A stretch of 8,181 nucleotides of DNA from Candidatus Latescibacterota bacterium (lineage in GTDB: Bacteria > JAAXHH01 > JACQVL01), in assembly GCA_016209865.1 (NCBI GenBank), contig JACQVL010000037.1:1-8181 (forward strand), read 5' to 3'. The notes below the pieces were generated by a model, which searched no databases, had not been told where the DNA came from, and saw nothing but the letters and a program-made list of their open reading frames with translations. Made by a program: the position numbers and the translations under genes. This document shows, in pieces, positions 1 to 8,120 of the stretch (within the stretch, counting starts at the first letter, position 1; every line of letters starts with the position of its first letter).

Positions 1-2115
1 CCCCCAGGCCGCATGATACGCCTGGCGTAACGCCGCTGGCAACTCCCGGTACAACACCTCCTGAGTCTTCCCATGCGCAAACTGATAGACTCCCCCCTCC
101 ACCGGCGAGATGATCCCGTGCCGCCGCTCCAGCCGATGCAGATGCCGCAGCACGTCGATCCGGCCACTGCCCAGGGCGGCGGCTAACCCGTCCACATCGA
201 ACCGCTCGCCCCCGATGGCCGCCACCTCCAGCACCTCCCGCTCGGTATCCCGGAGGCGGCTCAGGCGGTGGGCGATCAGGTCGTAGACCCGGGGCGGGAG
301 CGCTTCGCCCGCCTGTTCCAGCCGAGTCCACTCCTGATCCGGGCCGCCCAGGAGGCCAGCATCCCGCCACCATTTCAAGAGTTCGAGGACGAACAGGGGA
401 TTCCCGCCGGTTTCCCGGGCGACGCGTTCCCAGACCCAGACCGGGACGGCGCGGCTGCCCACCACCTCTTCAACGAGGGTCCGCACCTCCGGCGGCGGGA
501 GCGTCCCCAGCACCAGCCGCTCCCCCACCCCTTCACGGTTCAGCCGCCGCAGCGTCTCTGCCAGAGGAACTTCAGGAATCTGATCAGCTCCTCCCAAGTC
601 CTCAGGACGGTACGTCGCCACCAGGTAAAGACGACGGCCGGTAAGCTGGCGGGCCAGGTAATGGAGAAGTTGTACACTCCCACTATCGCCCCATTGTAAA
701 TCATCTATGCACAGGATGATCCCCCGCTCTTCCGTGAGAGTCAACAGGATTTGCAGAATCGATTGAAACAAGCGCTGTTTTTCTGCTTCGGGACTGAGCG
801 AGACTGACGTGCGTTCACTCAGCCGGCGGTGCTCCTGGGCAGTCCAGATATGCGGCATGAGCTCCGCCAGGTTGGGAGCATCAGAGAGCACCCGGGCTCG
901 GAGTTTCGTCCGAATCGTCGTGTATGGATCAGGAAAGGTAGCAGACAGGCAGCGACTGAATGCCTCGACAAAGGGCTGATAGGGAATCGCCATCTCCTGG
1001 TACAGACACCGCCCAAACAGTGGCCACATCCCTTCCGCCGTCGCATGCTCCATCAGTTCTGTCACGAGTCGAGTCTTGCCGATCCCCGCGCTCCCGGCGA
1101 TCAGCATCAACTGGCCGTCCCCATCCAGCGCGCGCCGTACCCCTGTGTGTAACCGCTCTAATTCGACAGTACGGCCAATCAGATGACTCTGGAACTCGTC
1201 CCGCGGTTGAGGCAATGACCACCGGACGAGGTCCACAAGCGGTTCACGGTCGATCGGGCGTTGCTGGATCGCAGCGGGCCGGCCCGTCAACACCCAGTCG
1301 TGACATCGTGCCAGCTCGGCCATCAGCGCAGCCGCGGACTGATAACGGTCGCCCGAACGCTTCGCTAACAGCGTGAGGACAAGCCCGTCGACTTCAACGG
1401 GAACCGCCGGGTTGTACATGGAGGGGGGCAACGGGTCATCGTTGATGTGTTGATAGATCACCGAGATGACCTCTTCTCCGATGAATGGGGGGCGTCCGGT
1501 CAGCATTTCGTAGATGACCACCCCGAACGAATACAGGTCAGCACGATGGTCAACGGGTTCGTTCAGCACCTGCTCCGGCGCGATGTAATCGATCGTGCCG
1601 ATGACATTCCCGGTCAACGTCAGCACGCTGACACCGGTGAGGCGAGCGAGTCCGAAATCCAGGATCTTCGCCGTTCCGTCCGCCATGATCATGATGTTGC
1701 TCGGCTTGATGTCGCGATGCAGCACCCCTTGCTGGTGCGCGAAATCCAGGGCGTTGGCAACCTGCAACGCGATCTCGATCACGTCGAGGAGGGGAAGTCC
1801 GCCCGGAGCCGGAATCACCTCGTTGAGCGGCCGGCCGTCGAGCAATTCCATGGCAAGAAAACAGACGTCCTCTTCCTGTCCGACGTCATAGATCTTTACT
1901 ACATTCGGGTGGGTGAGCCGGGCGACGATCTGAGCTTCACGGAAGAAGCGTTTGACGTATTCTTCCTGAGCCGCTAAGGACGCGGCTAACACTTTAACCG
2001 CCACCTCCCGCCCCAACCGGGTATCCCATGCCCGGTAGACGGTCCCCATCCCCCCGCGGCCGATAACCGCCAGGAGCTCATAGTGCGCCACTCTTTTGCC
2101 CGGCTGTTCGCTCAT
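1..2115 (-). CDS. Ser/Thr protein kinase fused to AAA_16-type ATPase (3' end outside window)
   Basis: Reading from the ATG at 2115 down to base 1 gives 705 uninterrupted codons with no stop, so the C-terminus lies beyond the window. Residues 12 to about 272 are a complete Hanks-type kinase: glycine loop GRGGMGTVY (19-27), VAVK lysine K41, helix-C glutamate E60, HRDIKPSN (133-140, catalytic D135), DFG (153-155), APE (179-181). All catalytic residues are present, so an active cytoplasmic kinase is expected. After a linker (about 273-310), LIGR at 312-315 opens a STAND/AAA_16-type ATPase with Walker A GSAGIGKT (341-348), Walker B IILCIDD (466-472), ATYRPE (500-505) and GGNPLF (570-575). This architecture resembles PknK-like and ATPase/cyclase-type signalling proteins, which usually continue into TPR repeats; that part cannot be seen here. 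No membrane segment is visible. It follows the M50-HlyD gene by 8 bases and is almost certainly co-transcribed. The phosphorylation target is unknown. Confidence 0.95.
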   Translation of the reverse strand, partial: MSEQPGKRVAHYELLAVIGRGGMGTVYRAWDTRLGREVAVKVLAASLAAQEEYVKRFFREAQIVARLTHPNVVKIYDVGQEEDVCFLAMELLDGRPLNEVIPAPGGLPLLDVIEIALQVANALDFAHQQGVLHRDIKPSNIMIMADGTAKILDFGLARLTGVSVLTLTGNVIGTIDYIAPEQVLNEPVDHRADLYSFGVVIYEMLTGRPPFIGEEVISVIYQHINDDPLPPSMYNPAVPVEVDGLVLTLLAKRSGDRYQSAAALMAELARCHDWVLTGRPAAIQQRPIDREPLVDLVRWSLPQPRDEFQSHLIGRTVELERLHTGVRRALDGDGQLMLIAGSAGIGKTRLVTELMEHATAEGMWPLFGRCLYQEMAIPYQPFVEAFSRCLSATFPDPYTTIRTKLRARVLSDAPNLAELMPHIWTAQEHRRLSERTSVSLSPEAEKQRLFQSILQILLTLTEERGIILCIDDLQWGDSGSVQLLHYLARQLTGRRLYLVATYRPEDLGGADQIPEVPLAETLRRLNREGVGERLVLGTLPPPEVRTLVEEVVGSRAVPVWVWERVARETGGNPLFVLELLKWWRDAGLLGGPDQEWTRLEQAGEALPPRVYDLIAHRLSRLRDTEREVLEVAAIGGERFDVDGLAAALGSGRIDVLRHLHRLERRHGIISPVEGGVYQFAHGKTQEVLYRELPAALRQAYHAAWG

Positions 2116-2120
2116 CGCAG

Positions 2121-2126
2121 ACCTTA
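2121..2126 (-). promoter_or_regulatory. Ribosome binding site of the kinase gene, overlapping the upstream stop codon
   Basis: On the minus strand TAAGGT lies five bases before the ATG at 2115. Its TAA is the stop codon of the M50-HlyD gene, so termination and re-initiation can be coupled. This supports the chosen kinase start, which also places the glycine loop at the usual distance from the N-terminus. Confidence 0.65.
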
Positions 2127-4361
2127 CCACCAGAATTCAGTCCGGATGTACCGGACGACCCGCCTCAGCACTAACGCCCCGATCCGTCGCTGCCCGCAAT
2201 AGATTTTCGCGTTGCCCGTCATCCCGGGTTTCAACACCCCTGTCTCGTTGAGGAGACGGCTCTGAACCAACACCGTCTGCCGTCCGCCTACTTCCGTCGC
2301 AGTCGGCGCGATGGCGGTGACCGTCCCGAAGAAACTCATCGACGGAAAGCCCTGAACTTTCAGCTTCACCGGAAACCCCTCCCGGACATCCCCGACCTCG
2401 CGTTCCGGCACCGGCATCTCCACGAGCATCCTCCGCTGATCGACGAGTTCGCAGATCGTATCCCCGACAGCCACATACGCGTCCCGTTTCTCCTTCAGGA
2501 AGCGCGTCGTGATGACCCCGGCCATCGGACTCACGATCCCGGTCAGGCGTTTCTGTTCATGCAGATGGTCGAGGGTGGCGGTTAGTCCTCGAACCTCCGC
2601 GTTCACCGCGTCGATGCTCTCCGGGCGACTCCCCGCCAGGAGCAGGTTGAGCTGACTCCGCGCCTGCTCAGCCTCAGCCTGCTTGATCGCCAACTCCGTC
2701 CGGGCGGCGTCGAGCGCCTCGGCGGCGATGACACGCTGCTGGGCCAGGGCGGATGCCCGGTTGAAGGCATTCTCCGCCGCGTGCAGGCTCGTCTGTGCCT
2801 GTTCAACCGCAAAACGGGCTTGCTCGATCTCCTCAGGGCGCGCCCCTTTCTTGAGCAGGGCAAGCTGCGCCTGCGCTTGCGCTCTCCGGGCCTGTACGGT
2901 CCGAAGTTCAGCGTCGAGGTCACGCGTGGATAAGCGAGCCAGCACCCGGCCCGCCTGAACGGTATCCCCTTCCTCCACGTAGAGCGAATCCAGTTGCCCG
3001 GCGATCCGGGCCCGGACGACGGCTCGCTCGACCGCGCGAAGCTGGCACGAGGATGAAACTCGCAACTCCATCCGGATGAAAAATCCGCCCAGGATCACGA
3101 TCCCTCCCCCCGCCAGGAGGAGGAGGTTCCGGGGCGCGATGAACCGGGACCGGTGTTCACGGAACACCGCCCCGGTGACCCGCGTGGCCTCTTTCACCGG
3201 CTGGCCGAGGACCGCGCCCATCAGCAGGAGAAACCCGACCACGCCGAGTTCCTGATAATTCGCGACGAGAAACTCTTCCGCCTGAAACAGGAGCGACCCG
3301 ATCAACCCCGCTGAGTAGAGACAGGCCAGCAGACCATAACTCACGTAGAGACGACGTTCCCGTGGGCTGACACGGCCTGCCTGAGAAGAAGAAGGAACGA
3401 GCATGGCTTTTACCCGGGCACTCAAGTACCCGAACGCTTTCTGGCGCAGGTTCGGGATGCCGACCAGATCGCTCAACAGATAGTACCCATCGAATTTCAG
3501 AAGCGGGTTGAAATTAAAGAGCAGGCTCGTCCCTGCGACGACCATGACCAGAAAACTAACGTGGTTCAGGGAGGTCTCCGGCGCGGTCACCCGCCAGACC
3601 AGCGCGGCCCCGGCCCAGACCAGCATCCCACTGTACACCCCGGCGAGCATCACCAGCATCCGTTCTCGTCTGGTGCGGAATAACCAGACATCACTCACAT
3701 CGGTGTAGAAACACGGCTGGAAATAGATCAGCAGGAATCCCGCTTCGTGCACCTCACCCCCGAAATGCCGGCAGGCCAATCCGTGAGCCAATTCATGGAC
3801 GGTCAGGATAAGACTCAGGATCACATACAGGGAGAGCAGGAACGTTCCCTTCAGACGGACTAACTCATGAAATTGTCCGACCCACCCTTCCCAGTCGGAC
3901 GCCAGTCCCCATGCGGCCAGGAGAACTATCCCGATGGAGAAGACGACAAAGGCAGAAGAGAAACAGAAGGCGAACCACGGGTAGAGCCGGTCGAACAGCC
4001 TTCCAGGGTCGAACGCTCGCAGCTTGATATAGAGCAGTCGTCTCAAGAACGGAGGACGTGACGCGTCTTGATCCGTGCTCTCCGGAGCCCCGGCCTGCTC
4101 GATCAACCCGAACCGCGCCAGCCGGCTCACGAATGTCTCCAGGCTCTCCAACCGCACCGGCTTTCCCAAGCGTTCAGATAAGGAAGCCTGAATAGCGCTG
4201 AGGGAAGTGTTGCCGTCCAGTCGCGTGGCGACAGAGTACTGAAAGGCCGTACAACGAAAATACTTGTTCGTCATCGGGTCCTTGAGGACAAACCAGACCC
4301 GACCGTGCTGGTGTTGTTCGCGACAAACCAGGTCAGACCGGAGCTTGGGGAACGGACTCAT
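2124..4361 (-). CDS. PqqD-like / M50 metalloprotease / HlyD membrane-fusion tripartite protein
   Basis: The 745-residue product has three parts. Residues about 8-95 resemble a PqqD-type winged helix (KDPMTNKYFRC near 27-37, then LDG and a leucine-rich helical stretch); PqqD folds bind leader peptides in RiPP pathways. Residues about 125-430 are a multi-pass membrane core with HELAH at 189-193 and NPLLKFDGYY at 285-294, the zinc-binding pair of M50/site-2-protease-like enzymes (H189, H193, probably D291). Residues about 435-725 are a HlyD-type adaptor: split lipoyl/barrel-sandwich halves (about 440-475 and 606-645) around a long coiled coil (478-600) with a repeated ARPEEI/SRPESI motif, then a beta-barrel. 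I chose ATG 4361 because GAGGA lies ten bases upstream and a promoter lies between it and an in-frame TTG at 4454. Family knowledge suggests a membrane protease/exporter component; no ABC or RND partner is visible and the substrate is unknown. Confidence 0.88.
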   Translation of the reverse strand: MSPFPKLRSDLVCREQHQHGRVWFVLKDPMTNKYFRCTAFQYSVATRLDGNTSLSAIQASLSERLGKPVRLESLETFVSRLARFGLIEQAGAPESTDQDASRPPFLRRLLYIKLRAFDPGRLFDRLYPWFAFCFSSAFVVFSIGIVLLAAWGLASDWEGWVGQFHELVRLKGTFLLSLYVILSLILTVHELAHGLACRHFGGEVHEAGFLLIYFQPCFYTDVSDVWLFRTRRERMLVMLAGVYSGMLVWAGAALVWRVTAPETSLNHVSFLVMVVAGTSLLFNFNPLLKFDGYYLLSDLVGIPNLRQKAFGYLSARVKAMLVPSSSQAGRVSPRERRLYVSYGLLACLYSAGLIGSLLFQAEEFLVANYQELGVVGFLLLMGAVLGQPVKEATRVTGAVFREHRSRFIAPRNLLLLAGGGIVILGGFFIRMELRVSSSCQLRAVERAVVRARIAGQLDSLYVEEGDTVQAGRVLARLSTRDLDAELRTVQARRAQAQAQLALLKKGARPEEIEQARFAVEQAQTSLHAAENAFNRASALAQQRVIAAEALDAARTELAIKQAEAEQARSQLNLLLAGSRPESIDAVNAEVRGLTATLDHLHEQKRLTGIVSPMAGVITTRFLKEKRDAYVAVGDTICELVDQRRMLVEMPVPEREVGDVREGFPVKLKVQGFPSMSFFGTVTAIAPTATEVGGRQTVLVQSRLLNETGVLKPGMTGNAKIYCGQRRIGALVLRRVVRYIRTEFWW

Positions 4362-4685: not shown

Positions 4686-4895
4686 ATGACCGTCGTCGAG
4701 TTGACCCGCCAGGAAATATGGACGATCCTCTGCTGGGCCGGCGCAGGGAACGGTGAGGAGTTGGAGAGCTACAACCTGGAGGAGGCGTCGATTCTCCGCA
4801 AGTTACGGCTGGCGCTGGCCGTGGAAGACGCCCGTCTGAAGGCGCAAACCGAAGCGGTACGGGATCCCGATCATGGGAAGACCACGACATCCTGA
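4686..4895 (+). CDS. Small unrecognised 69-residue protein
   Basis: The product begins MTVVELTRQEIWTILCW and continues with an acidic, largely helical stretch (EELESYNLEEASILRKLRLALAVEDARLK, about residues 24-53 with junction residues), then a polar tail. There is no signal peptide, no clear membrane span and a single cysteine (C16). Codons strongly favour G or C in the third position, as in the neighbouring real genes, which supports coding. An in-frame TGA at 4677 fixes ATG 4686 as the first possible ATG; the ribosome site is weak, fitting re-initiation from upstream. Its last 23 bases overlap the start of the propeller gene, so the two are probably translationally coupled. The family is unknown to me; a small cytoplasmic accessory or regulatory protein is possible. 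Confidence 0.5.
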   Translation: MTVVELTRQEIWTILCWAGAGNGEELESYNLEEASILRKLRLALAVEDARLKAQTEAVRDPDHGKTTTS

Positions 4896-7137
4896 TCCCG
4901 TCCCATCTCCCGCTCCCCGGCTCCTTTCCTGTTGCCCGACTCTCTTCCTCGTCTTCGTTCTTGCCCAGGCCGTCGGTTCCCCGTCCTCCAGCATCGCACG
5001 GGTCGGGGAGTGGACGACCTATACGTTCGCCAACGAGGTCCGCGCGATCGCGTTCGACCGGGGTGCGATCTGGTGCGCCACGGCCGGGGGGGGAGTCCGG
5101 TTCGACCCGACAACCTCCCGGTTTGCCACATACACCAACGCGGACGGCCTCAGCGGGAATGATGTGACGTCACTCGCCGTCGATCGCAACGGGGATGTCT
5201 GGTTCGGGACGCGGGAACGCGGGCTGTCCCGGCGGCGCGGCGATACGGGCGGGTGGCGGACGTATACTCCGCTCGACGGCCTGGCGAGCGAACGGGTCGG
5301 CGCGGTGTTCATCCGGGGCAATACCCTCTGGGTCGGCACGCAGGATGGGTTGAGCGTGTTCGTCTGGGGAACGGATGTGGACGAGCGCCGCGACACGTTC
5401 GTCTTCTCCGACGCGTACCGTGCCTCCCGCGGCGTCCCACTCGCCAACACGCAGACGATCGCCTTCGGGGAGACGACGATCTGGGCCGGAACGGAGAACG
5501 GCGTGGCGACCGCCCAGTATACCGCTGCCAACCTCAAGGACCCGGCGAACTGGACGACCTACACCGTCGCACACGGCCTGCCGGACGACCGGGTGACCGC
5601 CCTGGCGGTATCGGGAACAGAAGCCTGGGCCGGCACCCCGGCCGGGGTAGCCCGTTTCGATGGGACACGATGGCAGACGATGAACACCGGCCTGCTGTCG
5701 ACCGATATCCGGGGTCTTGCGTTCATCGAGGGGACGCTCTGGGCGGCGACCGGCGCGGAAGTCGCCAAGCTGGACGGCTCGACCTGGCATCAGGTGGGCG
5801 GGGGCGTCGGCCCATCCGGCGCCCGCACGGTCGCGGCGGATTCGACAGGCACGGTCTGGATCGGCGCCGCTCGGAACGGGCTTGGCCGTCTGGAACAAGG
5901 AGAGTGGCGCTTCTCAGCGTCGAACGGGCCGGCCGGGAATGTGATCGACGCTCTCTTCATCGACCGCCGCGGGCACGTGTGGTGCGGACTCGACGAGGGC
6001 GGCGTCAGCCGGTTCGACGGGACGGAATGGGTGACCTACACGACGGCGGACGGTCTTGCGCCCGGGCCGGTCGTGATGATCGGGGAAGATCGAGCCGGGA
6101 TCAGATGGTTCGGCACCTTCGGCCATGGACTCTCCAGGCTGGACGACAACGGGACGCTGGCGAAGGACGACGACCACTGGCGGACGTTCGACCAGCGCGA
6201 CAGTACGTTCGCGGGCGTCCCTGAAGACCCGGCGTTCGTCGTCGTGAACGCCTGGGCGATCGATCAGAGTGGGGGACAGTGGTTCTCGAATTTCGGGGCC
6301 GGGGCGTTGTTTTTGAACACCGATGGCCGATGGGCCGCCTCCCGCCCGCGCGCCGATGAACTGTCGAGCGCGCGCATCCGTGGGATCGCGGTCGGCACGG
6401 ACAGCAGTGTGTGGTTTGCGACAGACGACCGGCTCTCCCGTTTCCGGCCCGACCGGCGGCAATGGCAGGTCTACAGCACCCAGGACGGCCTACTGAGCAA
6501 TCAGGTCAACGCGGTCACGGTCGCCGAAGACGGCACCGTCTGGGTCGGCACAGACGCCGGGGTGAACCGTTTCGAGGGAGAAGTCCAGACGCCGCTCGCC
6601 CTTCCGTCCGGCCTCAACACGGCGGCGGTCAGCGCGCTCGCCACCGACGCCCGCGGCCGCCTGTGGGCCGGAACCCGGCAGGGCCTGGCCGTGCTCGACC
6701 CGGAGACACTCGACTGGCAGGTGTCTACCGTGGACAACAGCCCGCTCGCCCACCCGCTCGTCAAGTCGATCACGGTCAAGACGACGACAGGAGAAGTCTG
6801 GATCGGGACGGGCGGCGGCGTCAGCCGGTTCGAGTCGGGCGTCCTCCCGGTGCGGACGACGCTCTCGGACGTGCTCGTCTACCCCAACCCGTTCATCCCG
6901 TCCCGCGGGGACGCGGCCGTGGTGTTTGACCGATTAGCTGACGGGGCGATGGTTTCCATCCTGACCGCCGCCGGGGAACTCGTCCGTCAGATCCGTCCGG
7001 AGGAAATCGTCGCGCAACAGGCGCATTGGGATGGGCGCAACGACGCGGGACGGCCGGTGGCCGGCGGGGTCTACTTTTTCGTCATCACCACCCCGGATGG
7101 ACGAAACCGGACGGGCAAGGTTGCGGTGATTCGATGA
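4873..7137 (+). CDS. Exported double beta-propeller (Reg_prop) protein with FlgD-like C-terminal domain
   Basis: The 754-residue product starts with a basic/proline-rich segment and a hydrophobic core (residues 17-33, LLSCCPTLFLVFVLAQA), which reads as a signal peptide. Residues about 55-655 hold 14 repeats of the two-component-regulator-propeller type, each built around a pattern like I-a-D-xx-G-x-[VI]-W-[VIF]-G-T-xx-G-[VL]-xR[FL], many ending YTxxDGL. Fourteen fits two seven-bladed propellers. Residues about 666-754 begin VYPNPFIP and end WDGRNDAGRPVAGGVYFF, the FlgD Ig-like/secretion-tail type fold. Such propellers normally form the periplasmic sensor half of hybrid kinases; here no membrane anchor, kinase or cyclase domain follows, so it is an extracytoplasmic protein, perhaps surface-bound, for ligand or partner binding. 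The ATG at 4873 lacks a clear ribosome site and probably relies on coupling with the overlapping 69-residue ORF. Confidence 0.9.
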   Translation: MGRPRHPDPVPSPAPRLLSCCPTLFLVFVLAQAVGSPSSSIARVGEWTTYTFANEVRAIAFDRGAIWCATAGGGVRFDPTTSRFATYTNADGLSGNDVTSLAVDRNGDVWFGTRERGLSRRRGDTGGWRTYTPLDGLASERVGAVFIRGNTLWVGTQDGLSVFVWGTDVDERRDTFVFSDAYRASRGVPLANTQTIAFGETTIWAGTENGVATAQYTAANLKDPANWTTYTVAHGLPDDRVTALAVSGTEAWAGTPAGVARFDGTRWQTMNTGLLSTDIRGLAFIEGTLWAATGAEVAKLDGSTWHQVGGGVGPSGARTVAADSTGTVWIGAARNGLGRLEQGEWRFSASNGPAGNVIDALFIDRRGHVWCGLDEGGVSRFDGTEWVTYTTADGLAPGPVVMIGEDRAGIRWFGTFGHGLSRLDDNGTLAKDDDHWRTFDQRDSTFAGVPEDPAFVVVNAWAIDQSGGQWFSNFGAGALFLNTDGRWAASRPRADELSSARIRGIAVGTDSSVWFATDDRLSRFRPDRRQWQVYSTQDGLLSNQVNAVTVAEDGTVWVGTDAGVNRFEGEVQTPLALPSGLNTAAVSALATDARGRLWAGTRQGLAVLDPETLDWQVSTVDNSPLAHPLVKSITVKTTTGEVWIGTGGGVSRFESGVLPVRTTLSDVLVYPNPFIPSRGDAAVVFDRLADGAMVSILTAAGELVRQIRPEEIVAQQAHWDGRNDAGRPVAGGVYFFVITTPDGRNRTGKVAVIR
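7125..7129 (+). promoter_or_regulatory. Ribosome binding site of the FemAB-like gene
   Basis: GGTGA ends four bases before the ATG at 7134, inside the last codons of the propeller gene. With the ATGA stop/start overlap it supports this start over an upstream in-frame ATG at 7026. Confidence 0.5.
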
Positions 7138-8120
7138 CAGTCGAACGCTTCCAGGATGGTCCTGCCGCTCGCCAGTCGTGGGAACAGTTCGTCGCTGGCT
7201 CGAACAACGGGACGCTGTTCCACAGCCTCCGGTTTCTGAGCTACCATCCGGCCGAGCGGTTCCACGAGCATCATCTGGTGTTCACGAAACGAGGCCGGGT
7301 CGTGGCCCTGCTTCCAGCGACGAGACAGGACGAGGAGACTGGCCCGGCGCTCGTCTCCCATCCGGGTGCCTCGTACGGCGGGTTTGTCGTCCGCCCCGAC
7401 CTGCGGTTTGACGACGCGACCGCCCTCGTCTCCGCCCTGGTCGAGTCTGCCACGCAGGCCGGGTTCACGCGGATCGACCTGACGCTCACGCCCACTGTCT
7501 ACATGACACATCCCCATCAGGCCGTCGAGTTTGCCCTGTTCAGCGCCGGGTTTCGGTACCGGAAACGAGAATTGACCAACATCGTCTCGCTCGACTGTCC
7601 ACCGGATGAGGTCTTTCAGAGACTCACCAACAAGACACGAGGGCATCTCCGTCAAGCCCTCCGATTTGGCCTCCGGGTGGTGTGGACGGATGATCCACAG
7701 GATGACGCCTTAGCTGTCCTCTACCGGATGCTCCTCGACAATCGCCGCCAGCTCGGCCTGACGCCCCCCCCGGCGCATACGCTGGACGAGCTCATCCGCA
7801 TCCGCGCCCTCATGCCCGGTTGCCTGACCCTGGGACTCACGTATCGTGACGATGAACCGATCGCCAGCGTTCTCCTCTTCAATTGCAACACCAGAGCGGT
7901 CCTCACGTTCTATATCTGCCATGAACGGTCCCATCGCCATCATCATCCGGTGCATCTCCTGCTCTACGACTTACTCTGCCGGGCGACACGACAGGGATAC
8001 CGGGTCGTTGATTTCGGAATCTCGACGGTTAACATGGCCCCCCTCCGCAGCCTGATCCAGTTCAAGGAGTCGTTTCTGGCTCAGGGGTTCTTCCGAGACA
8101 CGTTCGAGCTCAGACTCTGA
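7134..8120 (+). CDS. FemAB/BioF2-like GNAT-fold acyltransferase
   Basis: The 328-residue product has the size and layout of the FemAB-like/Acetyltransf_6 (BioF2-like) group: an N-terminal half with GTLFHSLRFLSYHP (26-39) and HPGASYGGFVVRP (76-88), a central NKTRGHLRQALRFGLRVV (166-183), the helix YRMLLDNRRQLGLTPPP (197-213), and a C-terminal half with DFGISTVN (293-300) and LIQFKESFLAQGFF (307-320). Relatives transfer amino acids or acyl groups to peptidoglycan precursors, sugars or lipids, often using aminoacyl-tRNA or acyl-CoA. Many sit in cell-surface polysaccharide loci; the substrate here cannot be read from sequence. There is no signal peptide, so it acts in the cytoplasm. The ATG overlaps the TGA of the propeller gene (ATGA at 7134-7137), making the two translationally coupled. 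It is the last gene of the rightward group in the window. Confidence 0.85.
   Translation: MTVERFQDGPAARQSWEQFVAGSNNGTLFHSLRFLSYHPAERFHEHHLVFTKRGRVVALLPATRQDEETGPALVSHPGASYGGFVVRPDLRFDDATALVSALVESATQAGFTRIDLTLTPTVYMTHPHQAVEFALFSAGFRYRKRELTNIVSLDCPPDEVFQRLTNKTRGHLRQALRFGLRVVWTDDPQDDALAVLYRMLLDNRRQLGLTPPPAHTLDELIRIRALMPGCLTLGLTYRDDEPIASVLLFNCNTRAVLTFYICHERSHRHHHPVHLLLYDLLCRATRQGYRVVDFGISTVNMAPLRSLIQFKESFLAQGFFRDTFELRL

Follow-up and report, generated by a model that had tools for sequence, protein, structure and literature searches.

We favour, with moderate confidence, the reading that a 745-residue protein joining a PqqD-like RiPP recognition element (RRE), an M50 membrane core and a HlyD-type arm is a device for peptide maturation and export in one chain, that the substrates of its family are short open reading frames (ORFs) with a RIAP leader, and that in Zixibacteria the product is probably a signal. 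We observe three folds in this RRE-M50-HlyD protein, conserved zinc ligands, and linkage of the gene to short ORFs among its relatives. From these we infer leader binding, cleavage, export and signalling: (i) in the cytoplasm, the N-terminal RRE would bind the leader of a peptide made by ribosomes; (ii) the M50 core would cut this peptide at or in the membrane; (iii) the fused HlyD arm would pass the product towards an outer-membrane channel; and (iv) in Zixibacteria, the product would act as a signal between cells or in the envelope, and a TPR or kinase-TPR protein encoded next to the precursor would read it. The copy described here may act alike.

The window, which is the whole stretch of DNA that was analysed, is one complete contig of 8181 bases from a metagenome-assembled genome (3.75 Mb, 83% complete). 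It has the following features:

2124..4361 (-), RRE-M50-HlyD protein, 745 aa, ATG start (open frame, domains, structure model)
4092..4355 (-), predicted PqqD-like RiPP recognition element, residues 3-90 (Pfam on homologues, PDB profile search, AF2, Foldseek/VIA)
3084..4004 (-), predicted M50 (site-2 protease type) membrane core, residues ~120-426 (PF02163 in relatives, SpoIVFB match)
3783..3797 (-), HELAH zinc and catalytic motif, residues 189-193 (conservation in relatives)
3480..3509 (-), NPLLKFDGYY with the third zinc ligand, D291 (invariant residues across 57 sequences)
2184..3074 (-), predicted HlyD/MacA-type periplasmic adaptor, residues ~430-726 (PF16576, PF13437, TIGR01730; MacA match)
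1..2130 (-), Ser/Thr kinase with AAA_16, truncated by the contig end (PF00069 3.5e-54, PF13191 4e-27)
4686..4895 (+), 69-aa ORF, divergent from the RRE-M50-HlyD gene (conserved in a sister genome)
4873..7137 (+), beta-propeller (Reg_prop) with a C-terminal FlgD/CHU_C-like domain, PorZ-like (PF07494 8.5e-27, PF13860 1.2e-6)
7134..8120 (+), FemAB-like GNAT acyltransferase (PF13480 3.8e-14; TIGR03019 3.7e-21, below cut-off)

The GTG start of the kinase-AAA gene, if used, gives a 7-nt overlap with the RRE-M50-HlyD gene, and the start of the beta-propeller gene overlaps the 69-aa ORF. No Rfam family or tRNA was found in the window.

A sequence-only reading of this DNA had placed a PqqD-like N-terminus, an M50 core and a HlyD arm in one chain of 745 residues, and domain searches, structure comparison and relatives all bear this out. 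At the N-terminus, the window sequence alone scores under the Pfam cut-off for PqqD (PF05402, E=0.12, 13.2 bits, cut-off 23.4), yet PqqD is by far the commonest Pfam family among 61 homologous N-termini, with a match at E<=1 in 44 and a best value of 3.4e-7. A profile of the domain searched against solved structures matched TbiB1 (8e-4) and PqqD (3g2b, 0.02). The AlphaFold2 model of this domain (pLDDT 86) has three strands followed by three helices, a winged-helix fold; leader-bound RREs and PqqD are its top Foldseek matches, and VIA matched it to 6jx3 (Z 12.1), 5v1v (Z 11.5) and 5sxy (Z 9.5). Solved complexes of TbiB1 and of the lasso B1 protein show an RRE binding a leader. By profile and model, residues 3-90 therefore classify as a PqqD-like RRE and a predicted leader binder. 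Two clear stand-alone PqqD-domain ORFs lie elsewhere in the window's genome (G000:C142:7797-7994, E 5.5e-18; G000:C229:3959-4159, E 2e-16).

The membrane core follows the same pattern: PF02163 matches the window alone below its cut-off (E=0.0011, 18.7 bits, cut-off 27.2) and matches 54 of 57 relatives at E<=0.01. H189, H193 and D291 are the zinc ligands and E190 the catalytic residue; across the 83 relatives spanning these positions all four are retained, bar in one distant homologue, and P286, D291, G292 and Y293 are invariant in 57 sequences. Conservation of D291 is partly a matter of selection, because homologues were retrieved by NPL.K/DGYY patterns; that of HExxH carries no such bias. The modelled core matches SpoIVFB (8vjl) over 162 residues, within residues 120-361 (Z 10.2, rmsd 4.3), and both HExxH and the distal DG motif sit within its membrane helices. 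Motif and modelled fold thus mark the core as an M50 protease of the site-2 type, with predicted cleavage activity. The exceptional homologue (L041 2332-4710, (-)) is full-length but has lost HExxH and the DG motif (FQRFW), as though it could do without the protease.

The C-terminal half matches PF16576 (2e-18) and PF13437 (4e-17), both above their cut-offs, and MacA is the structural match of residues 430-726, with Z up to 15.9, in a full-length model of pLDDT 91.4 and pTM 0.72. Both the sequence families and the predicted fold identify these residues as a HlyD/MFP adaptor.

One scan returned more than 555 relatives, which upholds the earlier guess that the domain combination occurs elsewhere. 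The best 80 of these are mostly full-length and come from Zixibacteria, Acidobacteria, Planctomycetes, Verrucomicrobia, Gemmatimonadetes, Rokubacteria, Armatimonadetes, Bdellovibrionota and others; the nearest named relative of the window gene is from a Candidatus Zixiibacteriota bacterium. Because relatives are so widespread across phyla, the three-domain architecture is not new in itself. The tree sets the window and L034/L052 apart as a well-supported pair, and the two share their gene order. Other family branches have GAF-HlyD, HlyD or TolC partners and no RIAP motif, which counts against the favoured reading. The window's genome also encodes a protein (L042, G000:C200, 3-1934, (+)) in which an RRE-M50 region (daptide-protease match of 155 bits) is followed by a cyclic-nucleotide-binding domain, not HlyD.

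A survey of the relatives' neighbourhoods for short precursor ORFs was strongly positive. In about 31 of 84 loci, relaxed motif forms included, a short ORF with an LxVExLExRIAP leader lies within 2 kb of the gene. These ORFs encode 21-198 aa, nearly always on the same strand as the RRE-M50-HlyD gene, and share the leader consensus [L/Y]-x-L-x-[V/I]-E-x-L-E-x-R-I-A-P followed by a variable tail. We listed 55 distinct short ORFs, and a good Shine-Dalgarno site precedes almost every one; one of them, in L067, is probably there by chance. Tandem copies occur, four each in L056, L072 and L177. Pfam and NCBIfam do not cover the short ORFs; the few matches that they give are weak or low-complexity and fall under the cut-offs. 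No description of an RRE/PqqD-M50-HlyD fusion or of the RIAP motif was found in the literature outside subscription journals.

The linkage was examined with a strict motif, E.LE.R[IVTL][ASTV]P, and its reversal as control. Across 1.31 Mb of homologue loci the strict motif was found 35 times and the reversed motif never; 29 of the 35 occurrences are on the same strand as the gene and no more than 2 kb away, in a zone that makes up about 13% of strand space. Searching 50 homologue genomes gave 31 matches to the DNA pattern and one to the backward pattern. On the tree, the precursor label (without the Zixibacterial ORFs) is clustered, with 4 changes against 14.5 in shuffles. For the reverse test, 396 Acidobacteriota genomes were searched by the pattern alone and loci then inspected. 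Twelve of 13 full-motif short ORFs at the inspected loci have an RRE-M50-HlyD gene within 1.5 kb, and the 13th is near a contig end; nearly all other inspected motif matches fall inside long frames. The linkage and the reverse test together give strong indirect support to peptide recognition and processing in the family, and the earlier recognise-process-export interpretation is in part supported.

Two other loci gave related sequences. An Acidobacteriota ORF (L100, near 10411, (-)) has a RIAP-like leader and, after it, ARKAPL/ARKAPF repeated many times, which would suit a precursor that holds many copies of one unit. Two Armatimonadota precursors ending CGWLWR and ISCFWR (L162, G130:C331) are unlinked to an RRE-M50-HlyD gene and adjoin a gene that resembles, by eye, a B12-binding radical-SAM N-terminus.

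Precursors differ in style among lineages. Those of soil Acidobacteria, Rokubacteria, Gemmatimonadetes and Verrucomicrobia encode 40-135 aa with G/N/P/S/H-rich tails and lie upstream of the gene, and those of Planctomycetes carry long GS/GSK repeats; overall, tails in soil Acidobacteria and Planctomycetes are long repeats rich in G/S/N/P/H/K. Directly downstream of the gene, seven RIAP loci (L055 7550-8596, L061 12331-13278, L079, L083, L099, L108 and L113) encode a conserved uncharacterised protein of about 340 aa with no Pfam match above cut-off; its motif LILNNGSHRAYALR recalls ParB/sulfiredoxin-like folds by eye only. The long G/S/K/N/P repeats in soil and planctomycete cores also fit a different account, which we consider unlikely: that LExLExRIAP directs the sorting or anchoring of low-complexity structural surface polypeptides, and that the RRE-M50-HlyD protein is their small secretion machine and makes neither signals nor antibiotics. 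TolC-like genes, convergent and adjacent in three planctomycete loci (L069, L071, L077), would suit such a machine. So would a 565-residue frame for a protease-like Gemmataceae protein (L174, G110:C186), which bears the same motif at its N-terminus as VERLEDRIAP. That N-terminus resembles the LExLExR N-termini of large planctomycete proteins, and an exporter that serves RIAP short ORFs might also handle long proteins of this kind. Zixibacterial tails, however, are merely 5-15 residues long and are encoded beside TPR kinases, which speaks against surface polypeptides.

The Zixibacterial precursors encode 21-30 aa, with tails such as LGLSQGGQ, and lie between the RRE-M50-HlyD gene and a convergent kinase-TPR gene; a kinase-TPR gene is beside the precursor in L068, L073, L075, L076, L082, L088 and L097. 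For Zixibacteria loci without a linked precursor, a profile found unlinked ones (L209, L210 and L212) in the genomes of L053, L054 and L058, and all three have a TPR protein beside them. RNPP pheromone receptors bind their peptides through TPR domains, so it is reasonable to propose signalling in this branch. The placement of such tiny precursors beside TPR or kinase-TPR proteins suggests peptide signalling.

The export step of our proposal rests on the HlyD domain and on the TolC-like gene adjacent in some Planctomycetes; on the other side, no ABC family is among the commonest neighbours. We tallied 68 neighbour proteins by family and took the 25 commonest families, a count that is not exhaustive because the scan covered just the largest ORFs up to 4 kb away, shadow ORFs among them. 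Neither an ABC, MFS or RND pump nor a post-translational modifying enzyme is among these 25 families; a pump may be encoded elsewhere in the genome. The sequence-only reading had remarked that no exporter ATPase or RiPP maturase was in view, and the commonest neighbour families of the relatives agree with it. An ABC exporter as fixed partner, and a radical-SAM or lanthipeptide-like maturase as partner, were set aside as candidates, being outside the commonest families in this non-exhaustive tally. It is premature to speak of a RiPP in the strict sense, because no export energy source and no modifying enzyme were identified.

Having no exporter pump linked in the tally would also fit a role as a regulated intramembrane protease of a Ser/Thr-kinase pathway, with a membrane protein as substrate, HlyD as periplasmic sensor and the RRE as adaptor. 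A kinase gene overlaps or abuts the RRE-M50-HlyD gene in the window and in L034, kinases are neighbours in several other lineages, and GAF-HlyD fusions adjoin other family members. The short-ORF linkage, which works in both directions, and the leader-binding fold of the N-terminus nevertheless indicate peptide substrates, and we regard a kinase-pathway protease as very improbable.

The evidence for peptide substrates comes from relatives; for the window's copy, the search gave less. No RIAP-type precursor lies in the 8.2 kb of the window, none was found in its genome (83% complete) by strict pattern, relaxed pattern or profile, and the sister locus L034 has no RIAP ORF nearby. Motif-like matches in the sister genome G011 (L134, L211) were rejected as not credible ORFs. 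Because its own substrate was not found, that the window's copy recognises, processes and exports a peptide is something we infer. The gene order around it is conserved. The L034 kinase, in the same position, is 54% identical to the window kinase and is complete, running on into TPR repeats, and the window's kinase-AAA gene is likely the counterpart of the Zixibacterial TPR or kinase-TPR partner. The beta-propeller is conserved in L034 at 57% and the FemAB-like protein at 48%.

The 69-aa ORF, which starts MTVVELTRQEIWTILCWAG..., is present in 2 of 59 genomes only, the window's (G000) and the sister (G011), and is beside the gene in both. The two copies are 65% identical, and identities of 0.69/0.85/0.44 at the three codon positions indicate constraint at the protein level (positions 1 and 2). 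It has no match in Pfam (E<=1) or NCBIfam (E<=0.05). It could be a candidate substrate or partner, a regulator, or simply part of a conserved block. The window's copy may have diverged to handle the 69-aa protein or to serve the propeller/FemAB operon, in an organism without a RIAP peptide. The confinement of the ORF to two genomes of one branch, its position, the constraint on it and the lack of a RIAP profile match in the window's genome all fit such divergence. On the other hand, the ORF may just belong to a syntenic block that also conserves propeller and FemAB, it shares sequence with the start of the propeller gene and has no family leader motif, and the genome is incomplete. We lean against divergence while taking it seriously as a possibility. 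On the sister contig (L034 15421-16622, (-)), about 8 kb from the RRE-M50-HlyD gene, a 76-aa ORF overlaps a DUF7790 gene, and its tail, ...EEIEPWVAPSGWPID, is loosely like Zixibacterial precursors.

For the family, maturation and export in one chain remains the reading we favour, and a wider one can be put forward tentatively, at somewhat less than an even chance: a hitherto undescribed peptide system in at least eight phyla, with micro-ORFs from 21 codons upwards whose LxVExLExRIAP leader is recognised, and whose product is cut and exported, by one protein, and with Zixibacterial signals read by TPR kinases. If true, this would be a Gram-negative analogue of peptide-pheromone circuits. If the pairing with TPR kinases is real, Gram-negative peptide signalling would have its maturation and export in one chain. 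A specific leader motif and dozens of precursor sequences make the substrate question testable at once. A whole class of peptides in uncultured phyla may be unseen, because precursors this short are likely skipped by annotation pipelines.

Several known systems resemble parts of this one. The HlyD, MacA and EmrA adaptors share fold and Pfam families with residues 430-726, but they pair with an ABC, MFS or RND pump, whereas the arm described here is fused to an RRE and a protease. The NHLP-clan precursor family NF038399 (Os1348 family) matches one Gemmatimonadetes precursor weakly and below its cut-off (E=0.0099, 16 bits, cut-off 40), and the other scanned precursors have no match. The pearlin proteases TglG and TmoG, likewise M50 and membrane-bound, act on a scaffold peptide (PMC10885120); what they take off is a modified amino acid at the C-terminus, their precursor type differs, and no pearlin enzymes were seen here. 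The M50 protease EpeP/YydH (LiaK) is credited with both cutting and exporting an epipeptide (PMC10885120, PMC7614699) and is therefore a precedent for export by an M50 protein. In those papers EpeP has no HlyD fusion, whereas the window protein has a HlyD arm; no radical-SAM epimerase was seen beside the window protein. The epipeptide protease family NF058609, second among the M50 matches in NCBIfam, covers residues 169-300 at 47.1 bits, below its cut-off of 225. The best NCBIfam match is the daptide intramembrane metalloprotease NF041824, which covers residues 6-387, the RRE and M50 parts (E=3.5e-58), and scores 197.6 bits where the equivalog cut-off is 300. This match does not extend to the HlyD half, and no daptide enzymes are in the window. 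Judged by these matches, the window protein would work like the daptide and epipeptide proteases while belonging to neither equivalog.
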